A DNA stretch of 64,000 bases. Source: Aureimonas mangrovi. Lineage in GTDB: Bacteria; Pseudomonadota; Alphaproteobacteria; Rhizobiales; Rhizobiaceae. Of this stretch, positions 8,327 to 64,000 are shown in pieces (the stretch's first letter is position 1; the number at the start of each line of letters is the position of its first letter). A model generated the notes under the pieces. It worked only from the letters and a program-made list of their open reading frames with translations. It searched no databases and was not told the origin of the DNA. The DNA is taken from the NCBI RefSeq assembly GCF_014058705.1, contig NZ_CP059692.1:1555001-1619000 (forward strand), read 5' to 3'. The translations under genes and the position numbers were made by a program.

Positions 8327-8329
8327 GGA

Positions 8330-8950: not shown

Positions 8951-8958
8951 GGGCGCGC

Positions 8959-10829: not shown

Positions 10830-10923
10830 GGCGTCTGTTGGGTCCTTCGATGAAGCGGAACAGGGCAATTGTCGCGCTTCTATATGGTCCGCGTCGGGGC
10901 CCTATTGAAGAGCCGTCCGAACG

Positions 10924-11346: not shown

Positions 11347-11416
11347 CAAGTTCGCTCTCTTTGCCGGAGGTGGCGGGGCGGCTATGAAGGCTTCCGTCTG
11401 AAGAGGAAAGACGAAA

Positions 11417-12031: not shown

Positions 12032-12034
12032 GCG

Positions 12035-46902: not shown

Positions 46903-47036
46903 TGCCGCTCGGTTCCGCCCGCGCTTGGACGATCTTGGTCGGCACCGTGATCTCCGCCGCCACCCTGCCCGAAATGGAGACGGTCGCCACGACGCGGAGC
47001 AATCCGGCTTGAGCCGTGTTGCCGTGTCCTGGCGGT

Positions 47037-48727: not shown

Positions 48728-48788
48728 AATCGTTCCAGGAGAGCGCCCTACGGTGATATCGCGCCGTAAAAGGCGCTCGTAAAGCTGG

Positions 48789-48808
48789 TGTTATGTTATT
48801 ATGTTTGC
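48789..48808. promoter_or_regulatory. Candidate Zur operator in the divergent znu-zur region
   Basis: TGTTATGTTATTATGTTTGC is the only AT-rich stretch in this divergent region. It contains the half-site ATGTTAT typical of alphaproteobacterial Zur boxes and a direct repeat TTATGTTA/TTATGTTT. The second half does not complete the usual palindrome, so the call is tentative. It could regulate both the transporter genes and zur. Confidence 0.4.
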
Positions 48809-48844
48809 TCAGTCGTCATTGCAAGGCGTGATAAGGAGGCGGCC

Positions 48845-49246
48845 ATGATCGCCCATTCGAGCGAACTGACACGCAACCAGAGCCTGGTTCTGGACGCGCT
48901 CGTCGATGCCAAGGGCCCGGCCAGCGCGTATGGTCTCCTCGACACGCTGCGCGCGCAGGGGCTGCGCGCCCCGCCCCAAATCTATCGGGCGCTCGACAAG
49001 CTCGTGGAGTTCGGTCTTGTCCACAAGCTCGAGAGTATGAACGCCTATGTCGCGTGCGCGCACCGCCATGATCACGACGGTTGCGGGGCGACGGCCTTCG
49101 CCATCTGCGAGCGGTGCGAGAGCGTGGTGGAATTCTGTGATGCTCAGGTTGCCGAGCGCCTGTCCGCCTGGGCTGGCGCCCACAAGTTTCGCTCTCGTCG
49201 CACCGCTATCGAACTGCGCGGCGTCTGCGCCGCGTGTTCCACCTGA
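48845..49246 (+). CDS. zur: Fur-family transcriptional regulator, Zur-like
   Basis: 133 residues from ATG 48845, preceded by AAGGAGGCGGCC. The winged helix is in residues 8-75 (NQSLVLDALVDAKGPASAYG, APPQIYRALDKLVEFGLVH). HRHDHDGCG, CERCESVVEFCD and the terminal CAAC give metal-binding histidines and two CxxC pairs as in Zur. The divergent zinc-type ABC genes support zinc rather than iron sensing. As a Zn-bound repressor it would shut off uptake when zinc is replete. Confidence 0.9.
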   Translation: MIAHSSELTRNQSLVLDALVDAKGPASAYGLLDTLRAQGLRAPPQIYRALDKLVEFGLVHKLESMNAYVACAHRHDHDGCGATAFAICERCESVVEFCDAQVAERLSAWAGAHKFRSRRTAIELRGVCAACST

Positions 49247-49821
49247 ACCCGGATCCTTCGTTCGGCGCCTGACGGAAGCATCTCGGCGAACGGGGCAAAG
49301 CCATTTCCGTGAGCCGCTTCCACCAACGATGCGGAGCTTTGCGTGACCTTGACGCTCCGAAGGCTTGCGGAGTGGGCTGCGTACCAAGACCGGCTACCCA
49401 TCCTTGAAGCCGGACGGACGATATCTCAGCTTTCCTAAGAGCGAACCTGCGCGATCGTTGCTCCCTAGGCAGCCTTCACCCGCGACAGGAAGTTCCGGAG
49501 TTCTCTCGTCCGCTTGGCCGCGCTCGCGGATTGCGCCGGGCCCTTTGCTGGTCGGCTGTCTCGCTGGCGACGATGAGGAGGGTCGGAGCCACGGTGTTCC
49601 AGTCGCATTCGTTGGCGGGTCTTGGCTGCGCCCATCATACCTGGATCGATGCCGGCATCAGGCGATCTCGAGGCCCCGGCTGATCTGTCGCACCTGCAAC
49701 TCCGAACTCCCTAGAACGTCTTCGCGGCCGGAACGTTGTGCAGCGCAAGGCAATCACCGCTCTCGCTCATGAGCGCTTCGATCGTCGTCTTCATCGGCCA
49801 ATGCGTTCCAGGAGAGCGAGA
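49247..49821. other. Gene-free 575-base region with degraded coding traces
   Basis: No convincing gene was found. On the minus strand, 49533-49465 translates to a 22-residue segment ending in RELRNFLSRVKAA and a stop, which resembles the C-terminus of methyl-accepting chemotaxis proteins, but the upstream frame does not continue as one. On the same strand 49794-49711 is a 27-codon ORF without a ribosome binding site. The region may be decayed DNA between zur and the SDR gene. AGGAGAG near 49811 is the ribosome binding site of the SDR. Confidence 0.4.
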
Positions 49822-50823
49822 ATGAAGGTAGCAGTTGTCACCGGCGCGAGCGCCGGTATCGGGTTTGCAACCGCCGAGCGGTTCGCGCGATCCGGCTGGC
49901 GGGTCGCGATCCTTGCACGCGATCCCGACCGTCTCCGAGATGCCCGCTCGCAGCTCGAGCGCATCGGCGGCACGATCCTGGATATTCCGACCGATGTCGC
50001 CGACGCGGCGCAGGTTGAAGTGGCAGCTAAGCGTGTCGTGCGCGAACTGGGCTCGATCGACGCGTGGGTCAACAACGCGATGACGACCGTCGTCGCGCCG
50101 GCGCACGAGATCACCGCCCAGGAATACCGCCAGGTCACGGCCTCGACATACCTCTCGCAGGTCTACGGTACGCTCGCGGCGCTGCGTCGGATGCGGAGCC
50201 AAGGACGCGGTGCCATCATTCAGGTCTCGTCGGGTCTTGCCATTCGGGCTGCGCCCCTGCAGGCAGCTTATTGTGCGGCGAAGGCTGCTGTCGGTGGGTT
50301 CACTGACTCGCTGCGCGCCGAGCTGATCGCCGAAAAATCGCCTGTCACTCTCTCGGTCGTCTACCTGCCGGGCGTGAACACGCCACAGCCGACATGGGCG
50401 CGCAATCGCATGGGCCACGAGCAGGTCATACCGGACCCGCTGTTCGATCCGCGTCTCTGTGCGGAAGCGGTCTACTCGGCCGTGCGGGATCCGCAGCGTG
50501 AGATCTGGGTCGGACGCTCAACGATGATGATGGCGCTTGGTCAGGCGTTGTCGCCGAGCGTCGCCGATCGACGGGCGGCCAGCATGGTCGAGGCGCAGCA
50601 GGGCGATCCGATGCCGCACCGCGACGGTAATCTCGCGGGGCCAGAGACCGGACCTGCCCGCATCGACGGCCCGCGGACGCGGGACGTCGTCGGTTCGCGC
50701 TCGGAGTTCGTGACGAGCCGCGATGTGCGCCTTCTCAAGCTGGCGGCAGCGGGTGGGCTGCTGCTCGCGGGCGCAGCCCTGAGGACGCTCACAGGGCGCG
50801 GCGCGTCGGAGCGCTTGCGATGA
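49822..50823 (+). CDS. SDR family oxidoreductase with C-terminal extension
   Basis: 333 residues from ATG 49822. The classical SDR core fills about 1-240: TGASAGIGFATAERFA for NAD(P), VNNAM in place of the NNAG motif, catalytic Ser in QVSSGLAI, and YCAAKAAVGGF (Tyr-x3-Lys). A roughly 80-residue extension follows, ending with a hydrophobic LLKLAAAGGLLLAGAALR that may associate with the membrane. Its substrate is unknown. It overlaps the GH15 gene by 4 bases, so the two probably act together. Confidence 0.9.
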   Translation: MKVAVVTGASAGIGFATAERFARSGWRVAILARDPDRLRDARSQLERIGGTILDIPTDVADAAQVEVAAKRVVRELGSIDAWVNNAMTTVVAPAHEITAQEYRQVTASTYLSQVYGTLAALRRMRSQGRGAIIQVSSGLAIRAAPLQAAYCAAKAAVGGFTDSLRAELIAEKSPVTLSVVYLPGVNTPQPTWARNRMGHEQVIPDPLFDPRLCAEAVYSAVRDPQREIWVGRSTMMMALGQALSPSVADRRAASMVEAQQGDPMPHRDGNLAGPETGPARIDGPRTRDVVGSRSEFVTSRDVRLLKLAAAGGLLLAGAALRTLTGRGASERLR

Positions 50824-52652
50824 CCGTTGTTGAAAGGATCGCGGCTTTCGTGCCGGGCAAGTCCGGCACGCGTCGTCGCGGAGATCGCACAGCCGGCTAT
50901 CTCGCGCTCGAGGACTACGGCGCGATCGGCGAGGGGCGCTCGGTTGCTCTCTCCGGCGCGGATGGGTCGATCGACTGGTGGTGCGTTCCGAACATGGATT
51001 CGCCACCGTTGTTCGACCGCCTGCTCGACGGCGAAAATGGCGGTCGCTTCTCGATCTGCCCAGAAGAGCCGTTCGAGGTCGAACAACGCTACCGCGAAGC
51101 CAGCAACGTCTTCGAGACCGTGTTCACCACCGCCAACGGCAAGGCGATCATGACGGAATCGCTGAACAGCGGGACGGCAGGACGCCTGCCTTGGGCGGAA
51201 CTCGCACGCCGTGTCGAGTGCGTGCGCGGTTCGGTGAAATTCGATGTCCTGATGCGGCCGGGCCGGCGCGGCGATACGGTGAACCCGTACCATTCGACGA
51301 TCGGCGCGCAGACTGTCTTCAACGTCGGCACGGTGCTCGGCCTCTTCCTGCATTCTACGGGGCTCGGTTTCGACTGGTCGGACGAGTGCATTTCCGGACG
51401 CTTCGAAGTCCGCGAAGGTGAGCGGCGTACGCTGGCGATCGTCGCGTGCAGCGACGGGCCGCTCGTGGTCCCCTCGATCGAGGAAATCGACGAGCGGATC
51501 GACATCTCCGACGAGGAATGGCGCGTCTGGGCCCGTCGCGTCTCCTATGACGGGGAGAACCGGGAAGCCTTCGTACGCAGCGCTCTGGCGCTCAAGCTCC
51601 TCCTGTTCTCGCCCTCCGGTGCCATCGCGGCAGCACCGACGACCTCGCTGCCGGAGAAGATCGGCGGTCCGAAGAACTACGACTACCGCTACGCCTGGGT
51701 GAGGGACGCGGGATACACGATCAAGGCGTTCCTCGCTGCGGGCGCCGAGGCAGAAGCGAAGGCAGCTTTCTCCTGGCTCCTGAACCGGATCGAGGAACAC
51801 GGTACGCAGGTCTGCTACACGCTCGACGGCGGGCTCGTGTCGGGCGTCCATGAATGGGCAATGCCGGGCTACCGCGGCTCCAAACCCGTGGTTACGGGGA
51901 ACGTCGCTGCCAAACAGCGCCAGCACGGCGTCTACGGCGATATCTTCGAGACCGCGTCGCGCTTCGTGGAGCGCGGCAACATCCTGGATGCGCGAAGCGC
52001 CATGACGCTCTCGTCGCTAGCAGACGAATGCGCCGACCTTTGGCGCACGCCCGATGCCGGCATATGGGAACTGGAAGACATCCAGCACTATACGATGTCG
52101 AAGATCAGTTGCTGGCAGGCGCTCGCCCGGGCGGTGGAACTCGCCGACAACGGGCAGTTGCCGACGACCTGCCGCGAACGCTGGGTCCGCGAGCGCGACC
52201 GGATCGCGGCCTGGATCGAGGAGCATTGCTGGTCCGAGGAAGTGGGCAGTTTCGTCATGTATCCCGGCTCAACGCGCCTTGATGCCTCGCTCGCGCTTGC
52301 CGTGCGGTTCGGGTTCGACGGTCGTGATCGGCTGCGCGAGACGCTCGAGGCAATCGATCGCGAACTCGGCAGCGGGCCGTTCCACTACCGCTATTCGGGG
52401 GCGGAAAGGGAGGAAGGCTGCTTCCTCGCTTGTTCGTACTGGATGGCCGAAGCCTGGGCGATCCTCGGCGAACGGGATCGCGCCAAGGAGCGATTGGCCG
52501 AACTCGAACGGGCTCTTGCGCACGGCGCCGGCGTCCTCTCCGAGATGGTCGATCCCCGAACCAACGCGTTCCTCGGCAACATGCCGCAGGGCCTCAGCCA
52601 CCTTGCACATATCATGGCGATGTCGACGCTGAGTGGCGAGGACGCGGCATAA
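50820..52652 (+). CDS. Glycoside hydrolase family 15 protein (glucoamylase/trehalase-like)
   Basis: 610 residues. A beta-rich N-terminal domain starts with LALEDYGAIGEGRSVALSG and GSIDWWCVPNMDSP. The alpha6/alpha6 barrel has NYDYRYAWVRDAGYTIKAFL (about 280), with catalytic acid candidates near WELEDIQHYTMSK, and ends SEMVDPRTNAFLGNMPQGLSH. Bacterial members of this subgroup hydrolyse trehalose or alpha-glucans, and no signal peptide is seen, so it is cytoplasmic. It is coupled to the SDR by an ATGA overlap. No otsA or treS is in the window. Confidence 0.9.
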   Translation: MTVVERIAAFVPGKSGTRRRGDRTAGYLALEDYGAIGEGRSVALSGADGSIDWWCVPNMDSPPLFDRLLDGENGGRFSICPEEPFEVEQRYREASNVFETVFTTANGKAIMTESLNSGTAGRLPWAELARRVECVRGSVKFDVLMRPGRRGDTVNPYHSTIGAQTVFNVGTVLGLFLHSTGLGFDWSDECISGRFEVREGERRTLAIVACSDGPLVVPSIEEIDERIDISDEEWRVWARRVSYDGENREAFVRSALALKLLLFSPSGAIAAAPTTSLPEKIGGPKNYDYRYAWVRDAGYTIKAFLAAGAEAEAKAAFSWLLNRIEEHGTQVCYTLDGGLVSGVHEWAMPGYRGSKPVVTGNVAAKQRQHGVYGDIFETASRFVERGNILDARSAMTLSSLADECADLWRTPDAGIWELEDIQHYTMSKISCWQALARAVELADNGQLPTTCRERWVRERDRIAAWIEEHCWSEEVGSFVMYPGSTRLDASLALAVRFGFDGRDRLRETLEAIDRELGSGPFHYRYSGAEREEGCFLACSYWMAEAWAILGERDRAKERLAELERALAHGAGVLSEMVDPRTNAFLGNMPQGLSHLAHIMAMSTLSGEDAA

Positions 52653-52701
52653 GAGATGAACGTCCGAACTCGGACCGATATCCGGTGAACGGGAACCGCC
52701 G

Positions 52702-52890
52702 CTAGGAAGACATTCGGCGCTCGTGATCCTTATTCGAGCGAGGAATACGGGCTGACGTGCTGTCGTGACGTTGCCAGCTTTCGATAACACCTTTCTTTCG
52801 CGGGCGGCCCAGCGCCATGCGCGTGGTATTCGCCCTGAGGATAGCGATCCACTGGCGCACGACTTTGGCGATGATCCCCCCGAGGGACAT
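52702..52890 (-). CDS. Possible small basic protein
   Basis: A 62-residue ORF starts 7 bases after the SDR stop on the same strand. It is strongly basic and includes MALGRPRKKGV, reminiscent of AT-hook-like basic patches. There is no ribosome binding site and no recognised family. The 245-base convergent gap between GH15 and the SDR contains nothing else. It may well be a chance ORF in GC-rich DNA. Confidence 0.15.
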   Translation of the reverse strand: MSLGGIIAKVVRQWIAILRANTTRMALGRPRKKGVIESWQRHDSTSARIPRSNKDHERRMSS

Positions 52891-52897
52891 CACTAAT

Positions 52898-53665
52898 TCA
52901 GGCCAGCATGTTGGTATCGCCGCATACTGAAATGGCCTGCCCCGAGATCGTGCGGCCCGTGCGCCCTGCCAGGAACAAGGCCTGGCCCGCAATCTCGGAA
53001 GGCTCCACGTAATGCCTGATCGACGTGTAGGAGAAGGCCTCCGCCTCGGTCTCCGCGAAGCTGCGCCCTTGCCGTTGCGCCTTCGCCTCCAGGACACGCC
53101 GCTGGCGATCCCCCGCGACAAGGCCGGGCAGGATGGCGTTGACCCGGATGTCGTCCGGGCCGAGCTCGGCCGCAAGCGATTTCGTCAGCCCGACTACCCC
53201 CCATTTGGCGGCCGCGTAGGGCGTGCGAAGTGCGAAGCCCATTCGGCCGGCCAGCGACGAAAGATTCACGATCGAAGCATTATTCGAGCAGCGCAGGGCG
53301 TGCACGGCCCGAGAGGCGGCAAGATACTGGCTCGTCAGCACCACGCGCAGGCAATGATCCCAATCAGCGAGGTCGATATCCTCCACCCGTGCCGTCGGCC
53401 CGGCTATGCCGGCATTGTTGACGAGGCAGTCGAGCCCGCCGAAGGCCTCTATCGCCTCGTCGATGAAACCGGTGAACGCCTCAGGATCGGAGACGTCGAT
53501 CTTCCTGGCGAGCACATCCTGCGGAAGGGAGGCGAGCGCCGCGTCGTCGATGTCGCAGGTCGCGACCTTGGCTCCCTCCCCACGGAACGCATCGACGATC
53601 GCGCGTCCGATCCCGCCGGCTCCGGCGGTGACGATCACGCGCGCGTCCTGCAATCCCAGGTCCAT
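52898..53665 (-). CDS. SDR family NAD(P)-dependent oxidoreductase
   Basis: 255 residues. Cofactor motif TAGAGGIGRAIVDAF (about 12-26), NNAG in LVNNAGIAGP, catalytic Ser in NLSSLAGRMG, and YAAAKWGVVGL (Tyr-x3-Lys) are intact. The end, GRTISGQAISVCGD, is typical for classical SDRs. It probably oxidises a secondary alcohol of the catabolic substrate. It starts one base after the gntR stop region, so the regulator and this enzyme form a leftward operon divergent from the main cluster. Confidence 0.92.
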   Translation of the reverse strand: MDLGLQDARVIVTAGAGGIGRAIVDAFRGEGAKVATCDIDDAALASLPQDVLARKIDVSDPEAFTGFIDEAIEAFGGLDCLVNNAGIAGPTARVEDIDLADWDHCLRVVLTSQYLAASRAVHALRCSNNASIVNLSSLAGRMGFALRTPYAAAKWGVVGLTKSLAAELGPDDIRVNAILPGLVAGDRQRRVLEAKAQRQGRSFAETEAEAFSYTSIRHYVEPSEIAGQALFLAGRTGRTISGQAISVCGDTNMLA

Positions 53666-53666
53666 C

Positions 53667-54368
53667 TCAGTCCTCCTTAGGCCTGTCCGCGCCGAGCGCG
53701 TTTTCGATAATCGAGGCAGCCGCGCTCTGAATGTCGATCGTCACTGCGGCCGCCGCGCCCTCGACATCGCCGGCTTCCAGCGCCAGCAGGAGCGCGGCAT
53801 GCGCCTGCATCGAGCTGGCATTGCGGGAGCGGCGCGTCGGCATGCCGATATCAAGGTTGATCATCGGCCCCGCGCGCAGCCAGTTGCTGGCGATGATGCG
53901 CGACAATGTTGCGGAGCCTGCGGCGTCGTAGAGGCAGAAGTGCAGGCGCTGGTTGATCGGCACGGGCTCGGTGGAGCCCGGATCGCCCATCGCCTCCACG
54001 AACGCGTCGTTGATCCGGCGCAGCTCATTTAAGATTTCCGGGGTCATCCGTTGGGCCGCCCGGCGCGTCGCCTCAGCTTCGGTGAGGATGCGCGCCTCGG
54101 TCAAATCCTGAAAATCGGCGATCGAGAGCTTCGGCACCACGACGGCGCGGTTTCGCTCGATGGCGAGCGCACCCCCCGCCACCAGACGCGAAACGGCGTC
54201 CCGCACCGGCATGGTGGAAACGCCCATGGCTTCGGCCAGCTCTCGGATGGAAGTGCGATCTTCCGGCTTGAGCACACCGCTGCAAAGCATGTCCTCCAGG
54301 CGCGCACGCACCTGATCGGCTAGCGAATGGCTGGCCAATGGCAGCTCTGCAAAATCCGTGAAGCCCAT
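53667..54368 (-). CDS. GntR family regulator, FadR subfamily (FCD domain)
   Basis: 233 residues. The N-terminal winged helix (about 12-75) has LADQVRARLEDMLCSGVLKP, TSIRELAEAMGVSTMPVRDAVSRL, then GGALAIERNRAVVVPKLS. The helical FCD effector domain (about 85-225) has RLHFCLYDAAGSATLSRII and a later AHAALLLALEAGD, giving histidines for metal and ligand binding. It likely represses the divergent operon and responds to the substrate or an intermediate. A palindrome in its promoter region is a candidate binding site. Confidence 0.93.
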   Translation of the reverse strand: MGFTDFAELPLASHSLADQVRARLEDMLCSGVLKPEDRTSIRELAEAMGVSTMPVRDAVSRLVAGGALAIERNRAVVVPKLSIADFQDLTEARILTEAEATRRAAQRMTPEILNELRRINDAFVEAMGDPGSTEPVPINQRLHFCLYDAAGSATLSRIIASNWLRAGPMINLDIGMPTRRSRNASSMQAHAALLLALEAGDVEGAAAAVTIDIQSAAASIIENALGADRPKED

Positions 54369-54402
54369 TTTCGACGCTCGGCGGCCATTGACGTGAAGTT
54401 AG

Positions 54403-54427
54403 ATTATGCCATCATGATCTGAGATCA
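54403..54427. promoter_or_regulatory. Candidate GntR operator and -10 element
   Basis: TGATC-TGA-GATCA (54415-54427) is a perfect 5-bp inverted repeat in an AT-rich stretch between gntR and the catabolic operon. On the minus strand CATAAT (54408-54403) could be the gntR -10 element, placing the palindrome in the spacer. A second imperfect repeat AAGAT-CTAT-ATCTT is at 54442-54455. FadR-subfamily regulators bind short palindromes of this kind; the assignment is by position. Confidence 0.45.
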
Positions 54428-54488
54428 CAGTGGTGTTGAAGAAGATCTATATCTTTTGAACGCCGCCGTGAAGGGAGGAGAGTTCGAC

Positions 54489-54581
54489 ATGGACCATACG
54501 CGTTTGGCCGCATCGGGCGGCGCGCGATATAAGTCGCTACTGCACGGCGTTCGCCCTTTTGCGGACGCATGCGCGAAATGA
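54489..54581 (+). CDS. 30-residue leader ORF translationally coupled to the catabolic operon
   Basis: The ATG at 54489 is preceded by GGGAGGAGA at an ideal distance, the best ribosome binding site in this promoter region. The ORF has 30 codons (MDHTRLAASGG... ending DACAK) and stops at TGA 54579-54581, overlapping the ATG at 54578 of the next gene as ATGA. The downstream gene has no strong ribosome binding site of its own. It may be a leader peptide or a small protein; no family was recognised. Confidence 0.5.
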   Translation: MDHTRLAASGGARYKSLLHGVRPFADACAK

Positions 54582-55546
54582 CGACGGTCGCCATCGTCGG
54601 CGCGGGCCTAGTCGGGCGGGGCTGGGCCTTCGTTTTCGCACGGGCCGGAATGGCCGTGCGCGTCTGGGATGCCGAGCCAGCTGTCCTCGAACGGTTGCCC
54701 GCAGAGATCGCGAAAATGGCTGCAGAGGCCGGCGCCTTCGGCTGCGGCGGCTCCGATCACGCCGGGCTCGCGGACCGAATCCTCACTTTCGCTTCGCTCG
54801 ACGAGGCGTTGCGCGGCGCATCGCTGGTGCAGGAGAGCGGGCCGGAAGTTCTGTCGGTCAAGCAGGCGTTGTTCACCCGTCTCGATGAGCTCGCCGAGCC
54901 CGATGCGGTCGTCGCCTCCTCAAGTTCGGGGCTGACCGTCTCGCAATACACGGACGAACTGCCAGGCCGGCACCGCTGCCTCGTCGGCCACCCGGTCAAC
55001 CCGCCGCATCTCGTGCCGGTCGTCGAGCTTTCGCCCGGCCCGCACACCGATGCGGCGACGCTTGATACGGCGGAGCGTATTTACCGCCAGGCTGGCCAGG
55101 TGCCCGTTCGTCTCGAACGCGAAATCGACGGCTTCATCCTCAATCGCCTGCAGGCGGTGGTGCTGGCCGAGGCGCTGCGTCTCGTCGACGAGGGCTATGT
55201 GAGCGCGCACGGGCTCGACGACACGATGCGCCACGGCCTCGGCCGGCGCTGGGCCTTCATGGGGCCGCTCGAGACGATCTCCCTCAACGCGCCGAACGGC
55301 ATTGCCGACTATCTGCGCCGCTACGGACCAACGATGGCGCGCCTCGCCGACGATGCGGCGCGCGGCGAAGCCTTCAACGAGGCCGCGATCGAAAAGGTCG
55401 CGCGGGCTTTTCCGGTGACCGAAAGCGACAAGGTGAGGGCGCGCCAGGCATGGCGTGACGACGAACTGGCCGCCTTGGCGCGGCATCTGGCCGAGCGCAA
55501 TGCCCGGCATGCGGAAGGGGAGGGACGTCATGGCGGGCAAGCGTAA
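54578..55546 (+). CDS. 3-hydroxyacyl-CoA dehydrogenase family protein, lambda-crystallin/gulonate-dehydrogenase type
   Basis: 322 residues from ATG 54578; ATG 54569 would add three. The NAD motif is VAIVGAGLVGRGWAFVFA at the N-terminus. QESGPEVLSVKQALF, SSSSGLTVSQ and GHPVNPPHLVPVVEL (catalytic His region) are those of lambda-crystallin/L-gulonate 3-dehydrogenase and carnitine dehydrogenase relatives. LNRLQAVVLAEALRLVDEG and RRWAFMGPLETISLNAP follow. It most likely oxidises a free 3-hydroxy acid to a 3-keto acid. It overlaps the BKACE gene by 17 bases, matching sequential steps. Confidence 0.88.
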   Translation: MTTVAIVGAGLVGRGWAFVFARAGMAVRVWDAEPAVLERLPAEIAKMAAEAGAFGCGGSDHAGLADRILTFASLDEALRGASLVQESGPEVLSVKQALFTRLDELAEPDAVVASSSSGLTVSQYTDELPGRHRCLVGHPVNPPHLVPVVELSPGPHTDAATLDTAERIYRQAGQVPVRLEREIDGFILNRLQAVVLAEALRLVDEGYVSAHGLDDTMRHGLGRRWAFMGPLETISLNAPNGIADYLRRYGPTMARLADDAARGEAFNEAAIEKVARAFPVTESDKVRARQAWRDDELAALARHLAERNARHAEGEGRHGGQA

Positions 55547-56459
55547 GGTCGTCATCACATGCGCGGTGACGGGCGCTATCCATACACCCTCCATGTCACC
55601 GCATCTGCCGATCAGCGCGTCGCAGATCGCGGACGCCGCAATCGGTGCGGCAGAGGCCGGTGCGGCCGTCATTCATCTCCATGCGCGTGACCCGGAGGAC
55701 GGGCGGCCCGACCAGAGCGCCGGGGCCTTCGAGCCGTTCCTGCGCCGGATCAAGCAGGCGAGCGACGCGGTGGTGAACATCACCACCGGCGGCGCTCCGA
55801 CGATGGCGATCGCCGAGCGCATCGGCCCGGCGCTGCACTGGAAGCCCGAGCTGGCCTCGCTCAACATGGGTACGATGAATTTCGGCCTTTTCCCCATGCT
55901 CGGGCGCTTCAAGGATTTGAAGCATCAGTGGGAGCGGGACTATCTGTCCAACAAGGACATCATCTTCCGGAACACGTTCGGCGACATCGAGCATGTCATG
56001 ACCGAACTCGGCGCCAACGGCACGCGCTTCGAGTTCGAATGCTATGATACCGCCCATCTCTACAATCTGAAGCACTTCAAGGATGCCGGCCTCGTCACGG
56101 GGCCTCTCTTCATCCAGACGGTCTTCGGCCTGATGGGCGGTATCGGCGCTCATCCCGACGACGTCCTGCACATGAAGCGCACCGCCGACAGACTGTTCGG
56201 CGAGGATTATCGCTGGTCGGTTCTGGGCGCGGGGCGCAACCAGCTTCCCGTGGCCGCGATGGCCGCAGCCATGGGCGGCAATGTTCGGGTGGGTCTGGAG
56301 GATTCCCTGTGGGCCGGGCCGGGGCGTCTTGCCGAGACAAATGCCCAGCAGGTGCGTTCGGTGCGCCAGATCATCGAAGGGCTGGGCCTCGAGGTCGCTT
56401 CGCCCGCCGAGGCGCGCGAGCTCCTTGCCCTCAAGGGCGGCGACGCGGTCGGCTTTTAG
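55530..56459 (+). CDS. Beta-keto acid cleavage enzyme (BKACE, DUF849)
   Basis: 309 residues from ATG 55530, with GGGGAGGG upstream. The zinc histidines are in [15 protein letters not shown] (His49, His51). [28 protein letters not shown] and [10 protein letters not shown] complete the family pattern. BKACE enzymes, such as 3-keto-5-aminohexanoate and dehydrocarnitine cleavage enzymes, exchange a beta-keto acid with acetyl-CoA to give acetoacetate plus a new acyl-CoA. The upstream 3-hydroxyacid dehydrogenase would supply the keto acid. The R-group specificity cannot be read. Confidence 0.92.
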
Positions 56460-56467
56460 GAGGAAAG

Positions 56468-57778
56468 ATGGCAGTCGAACACATCAAGTGTGGCAAGGCC
56501 GATACCGAGCGCAACGAGGACGACCGCGCGGTGCGCACTCAGGTCGAAGCGGCACTCGCCGACATCGAGACGCGCGGTGACGCAGCCGTGCGCGAGATGA
56601 GTGCGCGCTTCGACGGCTATGAACCGGCCTTGTACCGGCTTTCGCAGTCCGAGATCGACGCGCTGATCGGAACACTGGACGCGCGCGAGATCGAGGACAT
56701 CCGCTTCGCGCAGGCGCAGGTGCGCAACTTCGCGGAGATCCAGCGGGCCAGCATGCGCGACGTGGAGGTAGAGACGCTGCCCGGCGTCACGCTTGGCCAC
56801 AAGCACATCCCGGTGCAGGCGGTCGGTTGTTACGTGCCAGGCGGCAAGTTTCCGATGGTGGCCTCGGCCCACATGTCGGTGCTGACGGCTTCTGTCGCCG
56901 GCGTGCCACGCATCGCGGCGGCCACCCCGCCCTTCAAGGGAGCACCCAACGCGGCCGTCATCGCCGCGATGCACTGGGGAGGCGCGCACGAAATTTACGT
57001 GATGGGCGGCATCCAGGCCGTCGGGGCGCTCGCCCTCGGCACCGAGACCATTGCGCCGGTGGACATGCTGGTCGGGCCGGGCAACGCCTTCGTGGCCGAG
57101 GCTAAACGCCAGCTTTACGGGCGAGTCGGCATCGACCTCTTCGCCGGCCCGACCGAGACATTGCTGATCGCGGACGAGACGGTGGACGCGGAATTGTGCG
57201 CGACAGACCTTCTCGGGCAGGCGGAGCACGGTTTCAACTCTCCGGCGATCCTCCTGACGACTTCTCGCAAGCTCGCGCTGGCGACGCTCTCGGAGATCGA
57301 CCGTCTTCTCGGCATCATGCCGACGGCCGCCACCGCGGGTGCGAGTTGGCGCGACTACGGCGCCGTCATCGTGTGCGACACGCATGAGGAGATGCTCGCC
57401 GCCGCCGAGGAGATCGCGTCCGAGCACGTACAGGTGATGACCGATCGCGACGACTGGTATCTCGAGAACATGACCGCCTACGGGGCGCTGTTCCTCGGGC
57501 CGCGCACGAATGTGGCGAACGGAGACAAGGTGATCGGCACGAACCATACGCTGCCGACAAAGAAGGCGGGCCGCTACACTGGCGGGCTATGGGTTGGCAA
57601 GTTCCTCAAAACGCATACCTATCAGCGCATCACCACCGACGAGGCGGCGGCCGATATCGGCCGCTACTGTTCGCGCCTTTCGATGCTCGAGGGTTTTGCC
57701 GGCCACGCCGAGCAAGGCAATGTCCGCGTCAGGCGTCACGGCGGCCAGACCGTGCCCTATGCGAGCGCCGCGCAATGA
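56468..57778 (+). CDS. HisD-family alcohol-to-acid dehydrogenase, sulfopropanediol dehydrogenase (HpsN)-like
   Basis: 436 residues from ATG 56468 with AGGAGG upstream. Residues matching E. coli HisD zinc ligands and bases are all present: Gln251 and His254 ([11 protein letters not shown]), Glu319-His320 (ASEHVQVM), Asp353 ([14 protein letters not shown]) and His413 ([11 protein letters not shown]). The segments [15 protein letters not shown] and [12 protein letters not shown] recall HpsN rather than biosynthetic HisD. The context is catabolic and no his gene is near. It likely performs an NAD-dependent four-electron oxidation of a primary alcohol to a carboxylate. The actual substrate is not known. 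Confidence 0.88.
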
Positions 57779-58533
57779 CGCCAATGCCATCCTTTTCGCT
57801 GGAAGGCCGATCCGCGGTCGTGACAGGCGCAGGGCGCGGCATCGGCCGGGCCATCGCCGAGACCTTTGCGCAGGCAGGCGCCGAAGTCTGGCTCTGCGCG
57901 CGCACGGGAGCCGAGATCGAAGAAGCGGCCTCGGCTATCCGCGACGCGGGCTACAAAGCCGAGGCGTTGGCGATTGACGTGACTGACATCGCCGGCTTTC
58001 GTGCCGCGATCGACGGCATCGGATGCCTCGACGTCTTCGTCAACAACGCAGGCACCAACCGGCCAAAGCCGTTGATCGAAGTCGAAAAGGACGATTACGA
58101 CGCGGTCGCGGACCTGAATGCTCGTGCCGCCTTCTTCGCCCTCCAGTCCGCCGCGCGCCGGATGATCGCGCTCGGGACGGGAGGGTCGATCATCAGCATG
58201 TCCTCCCAGATGGGGCATGTCGGCGCACCGAACCGTTCGCTCTACTGCGCGACGAAATGGGGTCTCGAAGGGCTGACGAAGGCCGCTTCGATGGAGCTCG
58301 CGCCGCATGGCATCCGGGTCAACACGATCTGCCCGACCTTTATCGAAACGCCGCTCACGCGGCCGTACTTCACCGACCCCGCGTTTCGCGAGGAAACGTT
58401 GAATAAGATCAGGCTCGGCCGATTGGGGCAGGTCGAGGACATCACCGGAGCGGCCCTGTTCCTCGCCAGCGACGCCTCGTCGCTGATGACGGGCAGTGCC
58501 GTCCTCGTCGACGGCGGCTGGACGGCGGGCTGA
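57775..58533 (+). CDS. SDR family oxidoreductase (FabG/gluconate 5-dehydrogenase-like)
   Basis: 252 residues from ATG 57775, overlapping the HisD-family gene as ATGA; ATG 57784 is possible. [16 protein letters not shown] binds the cofactor, followed by NNAG in [11 protein letters not shown], Ser in [10 protein letters not shown], and [11 protein letters not shown]. It ends [15 protein letters not shown] like many sugar-alcohol dehydrogenases. It is the second SDR of the cluster and could set the stereochemistry of a secondary alcohol, as HpsO/HpsP do in sulfopropanediol breakdown. Confidence 0.92.
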
Positions 58534-58582
58534 ATATTACAGGCTAAGAATAGACGACAATCGATTTCGGGAGGAAATCACC

Positions 58583-59560
58583 ATGAGAACCATCACCATC
58601 GCCCTGTCGGGTATTGCGGCTCTCGCCACCGTCGCGACGGCCGGCGCTCAGGAACGTGTCTTCGACGTCAGCCTGCCGCTCGGACCCGAATCCCATCAGG
58701 GTATCGGCGTCCTGAAGTTCGGCGAGGAACTGGAGCGGCTTTCGGATGGGCGCCTGTCGATCCGCCCCCATTACGACAATGCTCTGGGCGGCGAACGCGA
58801 GGTCGTGGAGGGTGTCGGGCTCGGCATCATCGATGCCGGCATCACGTCCACCGGGCCGATGGGCGGCTTCTCCGATCCGTTCTTGCTGTTCGATCTGCCC
58901 TACATCTTCACGAGCTACGACCAGGCACACGCCTTCCTCGACAGCGAGTACGGGGACCAGTTGGCTCAGCAGCTGGAGGACGCGACGGGCGCCAAGATCA
59001 TCGCCTGGATGGAGAACGGCTTCCGGCACAACACCAACAATGTTCGCCCCCTCCACACACCGGACGATCTGCGGGGCATCAACCACCGCACACAGGAAAG
59101 CCGCGTGCAGGTCGACACCTGGCAGGCGCTCGGCGCCAACGCGTCGCCCATGGCCTGGACGGAGGTCTTCACCGCGCTCCAGCAGGGCGTGATGGACAGC
59201 CAGGAAAACCCGCTGCCCACGATCTACGACGTCAATTTCTACGAGGTGCAGCGCTATCTGAACCTTACGCAGCATGTCTATTCGCCGGCCCCGTTGATGA
59301 TGGGGCGTGACCTCTTCAATTCCCTTCCCGAAGAAGATCAGGCGATCGTTCTGGAAGCAGCGGCTCTGGCGCTTCCCGTTCAGCGCGAGGCGAGTGCGCG
59401 CCTCGAAGCTGAGTACAAGGAACGCCTCGCCGAACTCGGCATGGAGGTGACGGAACCCGACCTCGATGCTTTCGCCGAAAGGGTGCAGCCGGTGATCGAG
59501 AACTGGACCCCGACTGTAGGCGCGGAACTCGTCGAGGCTGCCCGCGGCTTCCAGCCCTGA
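58583..59560 (+). CDS. TRAP transporter substrate-binding protein DctP
   Basis: 325 residues from ATG 58583, with GGGAGGAAA upstream. A signal peptide (MRTITIALSGIAALATVATAG, cut before QE) is followed by the DctP fold. The carboxylate-binding arginine region RGINHRTQESRVQVDTWQALG (about 169-189) and AMQ-like segment FTALQQGVMDSQENPLPTIY are present. An acidic organic ligand is likely because most DctP-type receptors bind carboxylates or sulfonates through that arginine. It begins the transporter genes 49 bases after the SDR. Confidence 0.94.
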   Translation: MRTITIALSGIAALATVATAGAQERVFDVSLPLGPESHQGIGVLKFGEELERLSDGRLSIRPHYDNALGGEREVVEGVGLGIIDAGITSTGPMGGFSDPFLLFDLPYIFTSYDQAHAFLDSEYGDQLAQQLEDATGAKIIAWMENGFRHNTNNVRPLHTPDDLRGINHRTQESRVQVDTWQALGANASPMAWTEVFTALQQGVMDSQENPLPTIYDVNFYEVQRYLNLTQHVYSPAPLMMGRDLFNSLPEEDQAIVLEAAALALPVQREASARLEAEYKERLAELGMEVTEPDLDAFAERVQPVIENWTPTVGAELVEAARGFQP

Positions 59561-59636
59561 TCCCAGCAAAGCAGGCAGGTCCGCGCACGCGTCGGTCGTG
59601 CCGGGCCTCCTCGTCCAGGCACGCCGGAGAGCGATC

Positions 59637-60158
59637 ATGCAAGCGATATTGAAGGCGGCGAACCGTGCCACGCACGGTTTGAACTGGCTGGTGGGGTGGC
59701 TCATCGCCACGCTGCTCGCCGTGATGACGGTGCTGATCACCTGGCAGGTCTTCGCGCGCTACGTGATGGGGAGCCCGCTGACCTTCTCGGAGGAAATCGC
59801 GCGTTTCTCGATGGTGTGGATGACGATGCTCGGCGCCGGCTACGCTTTCCGCTACGGGGCGCTCATCTCGGTCGACATCGTTTCCGAGTTCGCGCCGAAG
59901 CGCATCGCGCGGTTTGTGGAGATCAGCGTCGTGCTACTCGTCGCTGTCTTTGCGCTGGTTCTCTTGAAGGAGGGCTGGTCCCTTGCCGAGCGCGTCTCAG
60001 CCCAGACCGCGCCCAGCACGCGCATCTCCATGCTTTGGCTCTATGGCGCCATGCCAGCCGGCGCCGTCCTCATCCTCATCAACGCGGCCGGTCTTCTGAT
60101 CGACAAGGCGACAGGCGAGGAACCCGTTCTTGCAGAGAAAGAGGCATTGAGCGAATGA
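59637..60158 (+). CDS. TRAP transporter small permease DctQ
   Basis: 173 residues from ATG 59637 with four membrane helices (about 19-40, 58-78, 96-118 and 137-157). FSEEIARFSMVWMTMLGAGYAFR is the DctQ signature after helix 1. DctQ associates with DctM in the inner membrane; its exact role is structural. It ends in an ATGA overlap with dctM. The 76 bases between dctP and dctQ carry no gene. Confidence 0.92.
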   Translation: MQAILKAANRATHGLNWLVGWLIATLLAVMTVLITWQVFARYVMGSPLTFSEEIARFSMVWMTMLGAGYAFRYGALISVDIVSEFAPKRIARFVEISVVLLVAVFALVLLKEGWSLAERVSAQTAPSTRISMLWLYGAMPAGAVLILINAAGLLIDKATGEEPVLAEKEALSE

Positions 60159-61429
60159 TCGCGCTTCTCTTCGGGCTTCTTCTCGCCCTTCTGCTGCTCG
60201 GCGTTCCGATCGCCTTCGCGCTCGGTATCGCGGCTATCGCCACGATCTGGCAGGGATCGCTGATGCCGATGCTGATCGTCCCGCAGGAAACGATCCGCTC
60301 TATCAACTCATTCCCGCTGCTCGCAATCCCGTTCTTTGTCCTCGCCGGCTTTCTGATGCAGTCGGGCGGCATCTCGCGCCGCCTCGTCGATTTCTCGAAC
60401 ACGCTGGTGGGCGCGACGACGGGGGGCCTCGCCATCGTCGCCATCGTAACGTCCCTCTTCTTCGCGGCGATCTCCGGTTCGGGCACGGCAACCACGGCCG
60501 CAGTGGGCTCGATCCTCATCCCGGCCATGATCGCAAGGGGCTATAACCGCGACTATGCGGCCGCCAACCAGGCCGCCTCCGGCGCACTCGGCGTGATCAT
60601 TCCGCCTTCGATCCCGCTGATCCTCTATGCTATTTCAGCCAACGTCTCCGTGGGCGACATGTTCGTCGCGGCCGTGATCCCCGGCATTCTCGTCGCGCTG
60701 TCCCTGATGGTCTACGCCTATGTCTATGCGCTCGGTCATCCGCATGTGCGCGAGGAGGCCGCAAGCCTCGGCGACATTATGAAGGCGGGGCGGAGCGCGA
60801 TCCTCGCCATCCTCATGCCGATGATCGTGCTCGGCGGCATCTACGGCGGCATCGTCACACCGACCGAAGCCGCCGTGATCGCCGTCGTCTATTCGCTCTT
60901 CGTCGGAGTCGTCGTCTATCGAGAGATCGGCCTAGCGGATCTGCCGGGAATCTTCCGCAAATCCGCGGTGACGGCCGCGATCGTGCTTGTCATCATCGCC
61001 ACCGCAGGCCTTTACGGTCGCATCATCCTGTCCCTGCAGGTGCCGGGCATGGTCTCCAACCTCGTCGTCGGCTCGATCGACAACGCGATCCTGTTCCTGA
61101 TCCTCGTCAACCTGCTCCTGCTCCTCGTCGGCATGTTCCTGGAGGCAGCGGCGGCGATCCTGATCTTCACCCCGATCCTCCTGCCGATCGCGCAGACCTT
61201 TGGCGTTCATCCGGTGCATTTCGGGGTGATCGTCGTGGTCAATCTGGCCATGGGCATGTTCACGCCGCCGGTCGGGCTGAACCTCTTCGTGGCTTCGCAG
61301 ATTTCCGGCTCAGGCATCTCCCGCCTGTCTCGCTACATCCTGCCTTTCGTGGTCGTGGTCTTCGTCAACCTTCTGGCTATCAGCTTTCTGCCAGTGCTCT
61401 CGCTCTGGATGCCAGGGCTATACGAGTAG
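60155..61429 (+). CDS. TRAP transporter large permease DctM
   Basis: 424 residues with about twelve membrane helices. PLLAIPFFVLAGFLMQSGG, SGSGTATTAAVGSILIPAM, GALGVIIPPSIPLILYA and FTPPVGLNLFVASQIS are the conserved DctM segments. It is the Na+-driven transport subunit that imports the ligand delivered by DctP. It is the last gene of the catabolic operon; 284 bases without a gene follow before the tRNA-Pro gene. Confidence 0.95.
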   Translation: MIALLFGLLLALLLLGVPIAFALGIAAIATIWQGSLMPMLIVPQETIRSINSFPLLAIPFFVLAGFLMQSGGISRRLVDFSNTLVGATTGGLAIVAIVTSLFFAAISGSGTATTAAVGSILIPAMIARGYNRDYAAANQAASGALGVIIPPSIPLILYAISANVSVGDMFVAAVIPGILVALSLMVYAYVYALGHPHVREEAASLGDIMKAGRSAILAILMPMIVLGGIYGGIVTPTEAAVIAVVYSLFVGVVVYREIGLADLPGIFRKSAVTAAIVLVIIATAGLYGRIILSLQVPGMVSNLVVGSIDNAILFLILVNLLLLLVGMFLEAAAAILIFTPILLPIAQTFGVHPVHFGVIVVVNLAMGMFTPPVGLNLFVASQISGSGISRLSRYILPFVVVVFVNLLAISFLPVLSLWMPGLYE

Positions 61430-61713
61430 GTGGGGCAATTCGGCAGCAGCGCTCACTCTCCAGCGATCTTGACTGGCATAGTTCGGTACGGCCTCGTCTT
61501 CCGACGTTGAAGAGCCTTTTCGGCAAAGTTCGAGTGTTGCCGCCCTAATGATCGCCACCCTCGAATCATGCAGAGCCACGATCGATTGTACGCAACGGGC
61601 TGCGAAACCCGCCTCGCGAGCGCCCCTCGCGGGCAGGCTTCCGGCAGTTGTTTCTGTTGCCGCTGGAATTTCGGAAAGGCTCACGAAATCCATAGTGACT
61701 GTGGTGATTGGAG

Positions 61714-61790
61714 TGGTCGGAGTGGCAGGATTCGAACCTGCGACCCCCTCGTCCCGAACGAGGTGCGCTACCAGGCTGCGCTACACTCCG
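61714..61790 (-). tRNA. tRNA-Pro (CGG)
   Basis: The minus strand from 61790 to 61714 folds as a 77-base tRNA including encoded CCA. The acceptor arms are CGGAGTG and CACTCCG with discriminator A; the T arm has GGTTCGAATCC; the anticodon stem CCTCG/CGAGG encloses TTCGGGA, giving anticodon CGG (proline). Its 3' end faces the catabolic region, the side on which islands usually integrate, but no duplicated 3' end or integrase was found. Confidence 0.95.
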
Positions 61791-61925
61791 AAGCCGCCGG
61801 GTGTATAGCGGGCGCCATCGCGGCGGGCAAGAGCCGAAAACACGTTCGCCGGCATGAAAACGCAGAGCCGCGGATGCGTTGCGTGCCTTCGGGCAACGAG
61901 CTATAGAAGCGCGCCGTCGCGGCGT

Positions 61926-62000
61926 TGGGGCGTAGCCAAGCGGTAAGGCAGCGGTTTTTGGTACCGCCATTCCCTGGTTCGAATCCAGGCGCCCCAGCCA
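61926..62000 (+). tRNA. tRNA-Gln (TTG)
   Basis: A 75-base tRNA with encoded CCA. The acceptor TGGGGCG pairs with CGCCCCA. The anticodon stem GCGGT/ACCGC encloses TTTTGGT, giving anticodon TTG (glutamine), and the T arm contains GGTTCGAATCC. Length and order match bacterial tRNA-Gln closely. It is transcribed toward mmsA, 159 bases downstream. Confidence 0.96.
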
Positions 62001-62159
62001 TCATCGTTTTTCCTCGCTATCGCTATCGCTCCTCTCCAGGGCCGCGGGGGCGATCGCAATTTGCTCATCGGCCGTCTTTCTGCCGCCGTCCCTTGGCGGG
62101 CTCTGACGTTTCGTCCTACAAATCGTCGAGCAGGACAGGGTACGGCAAGGGAGGACTGC

Positions 62160-63656
62160 ATGCGGGACGTCGGGCATTTCATCGGTGGAGAGCATGTCGC
62201 CGGGCGTTCGGGGCGAAGCTCCGACATTTTCCAGCCGATGACGGGCGAGGTCGTCGGAAAGGTCGCGCTGGCCGGCGCCGACGAGGTGCGCCGCGCGGTG
62301 GAGAACGCCAAGGCCGCGCAGCCTGCCTGGGCTGCCGTGAACCCGCAGCGGCGCGCCCGCGTGATGATGCGCTTTCTCCAACTCGTCGCCGACGAGGTCG
62401 ATAGTCTGGCGGATCTTCTCGCCCGCGAGCACGGCAAGACGGTGCTGGACGCGAAGGGCGATATCCAGCGCGGCGTCGAGGTGGCCGAGTTTTCGCTGGG
62501 CGTTCCGCATCTGATGAAGGGCGAGTTCACCGACAATGCCGGGCCCGGCATCGATGTCTACTCCATGCGCCAGCCGCTCGGCGTCGTCGCCGGCATCACG
62601 CCGTTCAACTTTCCCGCGATGATTCCGCTCTGGAAGTTCGCGCCGGCCATCGCCTGCGGCAATGCGTTTATCCTCAAGCCATCCGAACGCGATCCGGGCG
62701 TTCCGATGCGCATGGCCGAGCTGATGATCGAGGCGGGCCTGCCCGCCGGCATCCTCAACGTCGTCAACGGCGACAAGACGGCCGTCGACGCGATCCTCGA
62801 CGATCCGCACATCAAGGCCGTCGGCTTCGTCGGATCGACGCCCATCGCCGAATATGTCTACAGCCGCGCGACGGCCGCGGGCAAACGCGCGCAGTGCTTC
62901 GGCGGCGCCAAGAACCACATGATCATCATGCCGGACGCCGACATGGACCAGGCCGTCGACGCTTTGATCGGCGCCGGCTACGGGTCGGCCGGCGAACGCT
63001 GCATGGCCGTCTCCGTGGCCGTGCCGGTCGGGCAGGCGACGGCCGACGCGTTGATGGAGAAGCTCGTGCCGCGGGTCGAAGGGCTGAAGATCGGCCTGTC
63101 GACGGATTCTTCGGCCGACTACGGGCCGTTGGTTACGCGCGAGGCCGTGGAGCGCGTGCGGAACTACATCGATATCGGCGTGAAGGAAGGCGCGCGGCTC
63201 GCTGTCGACGGGCGCGATTTCAAGATGCAGGGCTACGAGGACGGCTTCTATCTAGGCGGCTGCCTCTTCGACGAAGTGACGCCTGACATGCGCATCTACA
63301 AGGAGGAGATTTTCGGACCCGTCCTTTCGGTCGTGCGCGCCAAGGATTACGGTGAAGCCCTGAAGCTCCCGTCCGAGCACGAATACGGAAACGGCGTCGC
63401 GATCTTCACGCGCGACGGCGACGCGGCGCGTGATTTTGCCGCCAAGGTGGAGGTCGGAATGGTCGGCATCAACGTGCCGATCCCGGTACCGATCGCCTAC
63501 TACACCTTCGGTGGCTGGAAGCGCTCCGGGTTCGGCGATCTCAACCAGCACGGTCCGGATTCCATCCGCTTCTACACCAAGACGAAGACCGTCACTTCAC
63601 GCTGGCCTTCCGGCGTGAAGGAAGGCGCGCAATTCTCCATCCCGACGATGGAGTAG
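62160..63656 (+). CDS. mmsA: CoA-acylating methylmalonate-semialdehyde dehydrogenase
   Basis: 498 residues from ATG 62160, with AGGGAGGA upstream. It converts methylmalonate semialdehyde to propionyl-CoA (valine breakdown) or malonate semialdehyde to acetyl-CoA (inositol or beta-alanine routes). GVVAGITPFNFPAMIPLWK, FVGSTPIAEYVY, the catalytic cysteine in GSAGERCMAVSVAV and FTGWKRS-like FGGWKRSGFGDLNQHG are typical of MmsA, as is the missing general-base glutamate region (CFGGAKNHMII). An acyl-CoA dehydrogenase gene follows, so valine catabolism is most likely. Confidence 0.95.
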   Translation: MRDVGHFIGGEHVAGRSGRSSDIFQPMTGEVVGKVALAGADEVRRAVENAKAAQPAWAAVNPQRRARVMMRFLQLVADEVDSLADLLAREHGKTVLDAKGDIQRGVEVAEFSLGVPHLMKGEFTDNAGPGIDVYSMRQPLGVVAGITPFNFPAMIPLWKFAPAIACGNAFILKPSERDPGVPMRMAELMIEAGLPAGILNVVNGDKTAVDAILDDPHIKAVGFVGSTPIAEYVYSRATAAGKRAQCFGGAKNHMIIMPDADMDQAVDALIGAGYGSAGERCMAVSVAVPVGQATADALMEKLVPRVEGLKIGLSTDSSADYGPLVTREAVERVRNYIDIGVKEGARLAVDGRDFKMQGYEDGFYLGGCLFDEVTPDMRIYKEEIFGPVLSVVRAKDYGEALKLPSEHEYGNGVAIFTRDGDAARDFAAKVEVGMVGINVPIPVPIAYYTFGGWKRSGFGDLNQHGPDSIRFYTKTKTVTSRWPSGVKEGAQFSIPTME

Positions 63657-63710
63657 GGGTGCGCCGCACGGGAGGGCGGCGAGGACGGACGAGGGGAGGA
63701 GACGGCGGAG

Positions 63711-64000
63711 ATGGCCTCGACATTCGGGCTCGACGAGGAGCGACTCGCGATTCGGGCCATGGCCCGCGATTTCGCTGACGAAAAGATCGCGCCCAACGCG
63801 CTCGACTGGGATGAGCGCAGGCATTTCCCCGTCGAGACTCTGCGGGAGGCGGCCGCGCTCGGCATGGGCGGCATCACGGTTCGCGAGAATGTCGGCGGCT
63901 CGGGCCTGTCGCGCCTCGATGCCGCGCTGATCTTCGAGGCGCTGGCGACCGGCTGTCCGACGGTCGCGGCGTTCCTGTCGATCCATAACATGGCCGCCTG
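63711..64000 (+). CDS. Acyl-CoA dehydrogenase, N-terminal part (isobutyryl-CoA dehydrogenase-like; cut by window end)
   Basis: The first 96 residues are present and the frame is open to the window end. MARDFADEKIAPNALDWDER near residues 14-33 and GMGGITVRENVGGSGLSRLDAALIFE are typical of the alpha-helical N-terminal domain. SHM-like LSIHNMAA is seen at the edge. Position 54 bases after mmsA suggests the isobutyryl-CoA dehydrogenase of the valine pathway, the order found in many alphaproteobacteria; the specificity is inferred from context. Confidence 0.88.
   Translation, partial: MASTFGLDEERLAIRAMARDFADEKIAPNALDWDERRHFPVETLREAAALGMGGITVRENVGGSGLSRLDAALIFEALATGCPTVAAFLSIHNMAA

Follow-up and report, generated by a model that had tools for sequence, protein, structure and literature searches.

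Which compound is broken down by the gene cluster at positions 52898–61429 of the window, the 64,000-nucleotide stretch of the Aureimonas mangrovi genome analysed here, and do all of its enzymes serve one pathway? A first-pass annotation had seen in it a joining of two pathway types: a HisD-family dehydrogenase as in the use of 2,3-dihydroxypropane-1-sulfonate (DHPS), and a lambda-crystallin-type 3-hydroxyacid dehydrogenase (HADH) with a beta-keto acid cleavage enzyme (BKACE) as in carnitine degradation or lysine fermentation, accompanied by two short-chain dehydrogenases (SDR1 and SDR2) and a tripartite ATP-independent periplasmic (TRAP) transporter. Our analysis suggests an inducible catabolic operon for a short hydroxy-carboxylate under its own GntR/FCD regulator, composed of two modules: module A (GntR, SDR1, HADH, BKACE and the transporter) would carry the core route, and module B (HisD and SDR2) would be an accessory to it. 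To this explanation as a whole we assign a probability of roughly 45%.

According to the proposed route, DctPQM would import the hydroxy-carboxylate and HADH would oxidise its 3-hydroxyl to give a beta-keto acid, while SDR1 would probably act on a further hydroxyl or on the opposite stereoisomer. The Zn-dependent BKACE would then use acetyl-CoA to convert the beta-keto acid to acetoacetate and a shorter acyl-CoA, and the acetoacetate would be recycled through a 3-oxoacid CoA-transferase and a thiolase encoded elsewhere in the genome. HisD and SDR2 would form a cassette widening the substrate range. In an NAD-linked four-electron oxidation HisD would turn a terminal HOCH2-CHOH- end into a carboxylate, and SDR2 would act on a neighbouring secondary alcohol. 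We infer every reaction of this route from what was observed directly, namely the gene content, the two modules, a recurrent operator-like palindrome, the catalytic residues and the absence from HisD of a histidine that marks HpsN. The general course of import, oxidation to a 3-keto acid and BKACE cleavage is probable, and for the terminal-diol role of HisD we consider the odds to be even. The likeliest substrate class would be a 2-deoxyaldonate (3-hydroxy, 2-CH2) such as 2-deoxyribonate or 3,4-dihydroxybutanoate, an assignment that is tentative and somewhat short of even odds. For deoxyribonate, oxidation followed by BKACE cleavage is backed by genetic evidence from three genera (Price et al. 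2019, PMC6365646). The earlier reading of a TRAP-imported anionic polyol, oxidised at its 3-hydroxyl and cleaved by BKACE, is thus retained as the best one. HisD is not retained as an obligatory step, because the nearest relative, locus L211, possesses this TRAP operon but lacks HisD and SDR2.

The genes and the intergenic element discussed below are as follows, the GKFPM clade being so called here from a motif described further on.

52898–53665, minus strand: SDR1, short-chain dehydrogenase of module A (Pfam adh_short_C2, 164 bits)
53667–54368, minus strand: GntR/FCD-type regulator, divergent from the operon (Pfam GntR 55 bits, FCD 71 bits)
54415–54427, no strand assigned: palindrome TGATCTGAGATCA, probable GntR operator (sequence motif)
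54569–55546, plus strand: HADH, lambda-crystallin-type 3-hydroxyacid dehydrogenase (NF004783, 384 bits against a cut-off of 347)
55530–56459, plus strand: BKACE (Pfam 359 bits; NF053538, 537 bits against a cut-off of 430)
56468–57778, plus strand: HisD-family dehydrogenase of the GKFPM clade, module B (Pfam 427 bits; motif and metal-ligand test; quick tree)
57775–58533, plus strand: SDR2, module B, overlapping the HisD stop codon (Pfam 202 bits)
58583–59560, plus strand: DctP, TRAP solute-binding protein (Pfam 275 bits)
59637–60158, plus strand: DctQ, TRAP small permease (Pfam 111 bits)
60155–61429, plus strand: DctM, TRAP large permease (Pfam 392 bits, TIGR00786 426 bits)

All nine open reading frames were confirmed, with family matches far above chance in Pfam and NCBIfam scans. 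The genes named in the first-pass annotation are therefore present as described, although its list left out the regulator at 53667–54368 and the palindrome. SDR1 and the regulator are encoded on the minus strand, and HADH, BKACE, HisD, SDR2, DctP, DctQ and DctM follow each other in this order on the plus strand, the last three making up a full DctP-type TRAP transporter. Three neighbouring pairs overlap (HADH and BKACE by 17 bases, HisD and SDR2 by 4, DctQ and DctM by 4), which is consistent with one operon; very probably the whole cluster is regulated as a unit.

The search for relatives of the window BKACE covered the order (397 genomes, 103 with a match at E <= 1e-120), the family (297 genomes, 44 at E <= 1e-140) and the class (385 genomes, 3 at E <= 1e-155), and each count includes the window genome. 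Flanks were examined for 20 + 14 + 2 + 40 of the matches; the class-wide search contributed two loci, L225 and L226, both without HisD. Adding HisD loci, loci on plasmids and the window itself brought the scanned total to 189 loci, with a BKACE at least 50% identical in 87 and at least 60% identical in 86. Module A was scored where at least two of GntR (30%), SDR1 (40%) and HADH (36%) lie within 9 kb of a BKACE of at least 60% identity, and 36 of the 86 loci passed.

L211, from a genome of the same family (G532), is the telling case. Its operon has SDR1 (74% identical to that of the window), GntR (65%), HADH (63%), BKACE (84%), DctP (77%), DctQ (64%) and DctM (79%) in conserved order, but between BKACE and DctP it has neither HisD nor SDR2. 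Since module A recurs without HisD, the HisD and SDR2 segment (56468–58533) appears from these comparisons to behave as an optional cassette. The noticed union of two pathway types is thereby confirmed in a stronger form, as the modules have separate lives in other genomes. The neighbourhood comparison of BKACE and HisD that had been suggested as a check finds the modules mostly apart; among the loci examined, a GKFPM-clade HisD adjoins BKACE only in the window and in L035 (NZ_FNEA01000041.1, Paracoccus denitrificans DSM 413). In quick trees of BKACE, HADH and SDR1 (27 or 28 rows each) the window, L035 and L211 group together with supports of 97, 99 and 96, respectively, and the sister pair among the three differs or stays open between trees.

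The L035 cluster (1808–12063) encodes BKACE, HADH, HisD, SDR2, a branched-chain-type ATP-binding cassette (ABC) transporter, GntR and SDR1. It shares with the window the order HADH-BKACE-HisD-SDR2, the divergent GntR and SDR1 and the form of the palindrome, whereas the ABC transporter takes the place of the TRAP system. Its SDR1 is 70% identical to that of the window, and the SDR following its HisD is 72% identical to SDR2. The statement that no described pathway uses this set holds for the literature searched, but the set itself is not unique, since P. denitrificans has it with another transporter.

The separateness of the modules raises the question whether HisD and SDR2 work on some unrelated compound derived from a sugar, having been joined to module A by chance or selfishly and sharing only a promoter or carrier with it. 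This would agree with the lack of a GKFPM-clade HisD near BKACE in 34 of the 36 module-A loci, L211 included, and with the frequent position of this HisD elsewhere beside Ugp- or Rbs-type sugar ABC systems. However, the identical gene order in P. denitrificans, the short gaps inside one operon and the position of the window and L035 HisD as nearest kin (support 94) speak for a functional link. So does the presence of HADH with HisD in seven loci where no BKACE adjoins (in one of them, L172, a 56% identical BKACE lies 8.8 kb from HisD). We therefore regard an unrelated cassette as somewhat unlikely.

The palindrome supports the view of the cluster as one co-regulated unit. TGATCTGAGATCA lies between the GntR gene and HADH, and the form TGATCNNNGATCA matches once in the window, against 0.11 expected. 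The exact sequence TGATCTNAGATCA occurs in the genome, a single contig of 3.49 Mb, only at 54415–54427, and allowing one mismatch adds a single site at C1:97390. The search set comprised 37 loci, the 36 module-A loci and L221, whose GntR match is below threshold. Of the 36 related loci, 17 have TGATCNNNGATCA upstream of GntR at a distance of up to 400 bases. They comprise 15 of the 17 loci with a GntR of 39% or more identity to the window's and 2 of the 19 below this value. Three more matches are placed elsewhere in L154, L163 and L214, and the 13 bases are identical in the window and L211. This recurrence points to a dedicated operator kept among closer relatives, and 54415–54427 is, judged by sequence, the probable GntR operator.

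For the enzymes of module A a close structural relative is available. The BKACE of L035 is identical over 309 residues to the crystallised protein of 8RIO, BKACE15. The window BKACE, a member of PF05853 (359 bits against a cut-off of 24.8), matches BKACE15 (8RIO, 8RIP, 9HNF) at 257 of 308 aligned positions (83%), and the catalytic E171 and R254 correspond to E170 and R253. It also exceeds the cut-off of NF053538, a model for 3,5-dioxohexanoate-type BKACE, a name that need not describe the natural role. A second, less similar BKACE, encoded at G000:C1:696756–697622, shares 116 residues with the window copy over 269 aligned positions. For HADH the nearest solved chains are those of lambda-crystallin (3ado, 3f3s). 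The genome further encodes a CoA-transferase pair of the pcaI/scoA and pcaJ/scoB type, five Thiolase_C matches and one match to DUF4147, which we take to be of the glycerate-kinase type. These fit acetoacetate recycling and the use of a glyceryl product, but such genes are common and prove nothing.

The transporter gives some indication of the compound imported. By sequence the nearest solved relatives of DctP are 4nq8, 4pdd, 4p9k and 4pdh, and by fold 4pdh, 4pak, 4p9k and 4pdd (predicted model, mean pLDDT 84). Next come 7bbr, which is titled a sugar acid binding protein, and 8t9t, which binds isethionate. Pantoate or erythronate is presumably the ligand in 4nq8, 4pdd, 4p9k and 4pdh. Certain relatives of IseP, given without names, contained pantoate or erythronate (PMC11668362). 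In the DctP family the carboxylate is bound by Arg/Arg/Asn (PMC11668362), which in our reading would correspond to R148, R169 and N209 of the window protein, conserved against three relatives.

From its mechanism, BKACE needs a CH2 next to the carboxylate of its substrate. Pantoate, with a dimethyl carbon at this position, and erythronate, with a 2-hydroxyl, were both rejected as substrates and serve only to indicate size and polarity. The same demand means that any sugar acid used would be a 2-deoxyaldonate. A sugar origin is suggested by the other transporters of module A. Seven of the 36 module-A loci have an Rbs-type sugar-binding protein, and in six of these a lactonase is encoded as well, of the SMP-30 type in five and a metallo-lactonase in one (reference proteins checked by Pfam); in the seventh, L220, the sequence ends beside HADH. 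No lactonase above threshold was found in the 29 loci without such a binding protein, of which 17 have a branched-chain-type ABC transporter (four of these with TRAP nearby), three have TRAP and five have none of the carriers sought. Nor did three lactonase references find one in window positions 46001–64000. We read this as a sugar form entering by way of a lactone that is opened first, and an acid form, as predicted for the window TRAP, needing no lactonase.

Several observations weigh against this explanation. The 50 of the 86 BKACE loci that fail the module-A filter indicate that this BKACE type also serves other contexts, and in some loci it lies beside acyl-CoA dehydrogenases. As HisD is present in two of 36 module-A loci, its link to the substrate may be fortuitous, and were it to act ahead of BKACE, a dicarboxylate would result, which is not among the listed BKACE15 substrates. 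The palindrome was not found upstream of GntR in 19 of the 36 related loci. The sugar origin rests on relatives, since the window cluster is without a lactonase, and the lactonase contrast is biased because the references came from sugar-transporter loci. The six positives represent fewer independent cases, the lactonases of L153, L155 and L156 being 97–100% identical. Outside the 36, L253, L259 and L263 have a lactonase-type match (35–51%) without an Rbs-type binding protein, in L259 beside HADH and BKACE. Finally, C3 is oxidised by an SDR rather than HADH in the 2-deoxyribonate pathway (PMC6365646).

A further point of this kind leads to another reading, the degradation of an aromatic or arylpropanoid side chain. 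HisD would oxidise a primary alcohol to the acid, HADH or an SDR would yield an aryl beta-keto acid, and BKACE would release aroyl-CoA and acetoacetate. Aromatic acids are among the compounds that branched-chain-type ABC and TRAP systems can carry, and L214, a module-A relative, has a PcaC-like gene (carboxymuconolactone decarboxylase type, 10273–10662) between BKACE and SDR1, at 121 bits under the cut-off of 155.7. Moreover, the authors of BKACE15, who call its physiological role unknown, suggest aromatic degradation from its gene context, but the substrates they confirmed are aliphatic beta-keto acids (PMC11961710). With no ring-cleavage gene among the nine, a sugar-acid binder among the nearest solved DctP relatives, and a sugar ABC system with a lactonase in six relatives, an aromatic substrate is quite improbable, and the hydroxy-acid route is preferred.

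The HisD-family protein had been called HpsN-like. This is justified by overall similarity, the nearest solved chain being 8v35 (370 bits) and the nearest solved relatives HpsN and (R)-DHPS dehydrogenase, but not by the residue that defines HpsN. HpsN is recognised by the motif G-R-Y-A/S-H, whose last residue, His126, recognises the sulfonate (PMC11382572). At this motif the window protein reads GKFPM, with Met at the position of His126. A scan of the genome collection confirmed at least 566 relatives, and in all of the best 80 both GKFPM and the Zn ligands and catalytic Glu/His (Q251, H254, D353, H413, E319, H320) are kept. Eight more distant kin (60–71%) read GKYPL, GKYPM or GRYPM, none with His. 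In a quick tree of 45 rows, for which the program warns of long branches, 26 GKFPM rows lie on one side of a branch (support 100) and six GRYAH/GRYSH rows form a separate group (100); the long-branched L031 (GKYPL) joins the HpsN side. L109 (Fulvimarina) follows L035 as next of kin to the window HisD (support 99). The genome's best HisD-family match is another copy, at G000:C1:1073497 (544 bits against 427), whose branch in the tree is very long and separate; by this measure the window protein is not the biosynthetic histidinol dehydrogenase. In L088, a contig binned as Flavobacteriales carries a GKFPM-type HisD that groups with proteobacterial sequences, through either transfer or a binning error.

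A DHPS or other sulfonate pathway with HisD acting as HpsN could appeal to these solved relatives. TRAP carriers serve DHPS in other bacteria. They also serve isethionate (PMC11668362). The DHPS reading is nevertheless rejected, and any sulfonate pathway is very improbable, given GKFPM in place of GRYA/SH in the window and the best 80 relatives, the separate HpsN group, a published route that in the available text has no BKACE and HADH (PMC11131964), and the absence of a PF04295 match from the genome. We take PF04295 to be the SuyB-type family, so desulfonation of sulfolactate by such an enzyme is not expected. A carnitine-type route, with HADH as L-carnitine dehydrogenase and BKACE as the dehydrocarnitine-cleaving enzyme, would use the same enzyme superfamilies in the same two-step logic. 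An island with both is present in SAR11 (PMC12421898), but no thioesterase, dioxygenase or betaine enzyme is among the nine genes and HADH scores far below both carnitine dehydrogenase models (NF005716, 186 against 592 bits; NF005471, 178 against 414), which makes this route highly improbable. It is rejected along with lysine fermentation, for which BKACE is below the Kce cut-off (NF052387, 233 against 382 bits).

What the GKFPM clade does is suggested by its other settings. In 101 genomes, the window's included, a HisD copy of 59–77% identity is present in 22 of the 100 others, the next matches being at most 49%. Among the best 80 HisD loci, some of them short contigs, SDR2 is at least 45% identical in 66 and at least 50% in 35; BKACE and HADH of at least 50% occur in one, L035. 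Annotated plasmid copies in Ruegeria and Martelella lie with sugar ABC transporters, LacI and SnoaL-type 'ester cyclases', that of Pararhizobium gei beside a sugar ABC transporter, a metallo-lactonase and HADH; near a Rhizobium copy neither ABC transporter nor lactonase is annotated. Clustering of 52 loci found a lactonase family, HADH and HisD beside an Rbs-type transporter in L047, L070, L150, L172, L181, L185 and L187, the closest SDR in L070, L185 and L187 being just 31–34% identical to SDR2. Four of these seven, L047 (7527–8087), L150, L172 and L181 (6825–7370), also share a protein family of about 183 residues that no Pfam or NCBIfam model matched at the thresholds applied. A frequent setting of GKFPM HisD, as in Ruegeria, is seen in L145 (2753–17308) and similar loci, with a Ugp-type sugar ABC system, LacI, several SnoaL 'ester cyclases', an SDR, a cupin, a cobalamin-independent methionine synthase-like protein, an alpha/beta hydrolase and an RraA-like protein. 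A literature search pairing 'histidinol dehydrogenase' with 'ester cyclase' found no paper.

We speculate, with some doubt, that GKFPM HisD is a third functional class, neither histidinol nor DHPS dehydrogenase. Paired with an SDR, it would convert the terminal diol of a sugar-derived acid into a carboxylate, as part of a widespread, undescribed and mainly alphaproteobacterial sugar-acid pathway that in the window and P. denitrificans is joined to BKACE cleavage. If true, the crystallised BKACE15 would thereby acquire a physiological role. Already now BKACE15 gains a gene-cluster context with testable substrates, and the clade, annotated as hisD in most annotated plasmid records listed, fails the HpsN residue test. 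If the substrate were identified, many annotations as 'histidinol dehydrogenase' and '3-keto-5-aminohexanoate cleavage protein' could be corrected.

Two neighbours flank the cluster. A gene at 62154–63656, past tRNA-Pro and tRNA-Gln, encodes a CoA-acylating methylmalonate-semialdehyde dehydrogenase (TIGR01722, 650 bits) and probably belongs to a separate cluster. On the other side, the gene at 50820–52652 shares four bases with the end of an SDR gene and encodes a 610-residue protein with archaeal trehalase similarity below cut-off (267 against 820 bits).

Compared with known systems, we file the cluster as a variant of BKACE-dependent hydroxy-acid catabolism, with the GKFPM HisD clade as its most interesting part. 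HpsN, the DHPS 3-dehydrogenase (PMC11382572), shares family, Zn ligands and catalytic Glu/His with the window HisD, which lacks His126 and lies outside the HpsN group. The carnitine dehydrogenase/BKACE route and the lysine-fermentation Kce belong to the superfamilies of the window HADH and BKACE, both of which score under the curated cut-offs for those functions. The 2-deoxyribonate pathway (PMC6365646), from whose main text the word 'histidinol' is absent, has a lactonase and major facilitator superfamily carriers, unlike the window cluster. In its logic, however, it resembles the proposed route, as a 3-hydroxy acid is oxidised to a beta-keto acid, which BKACE converts to an acyl-CoA and acetoacetate.

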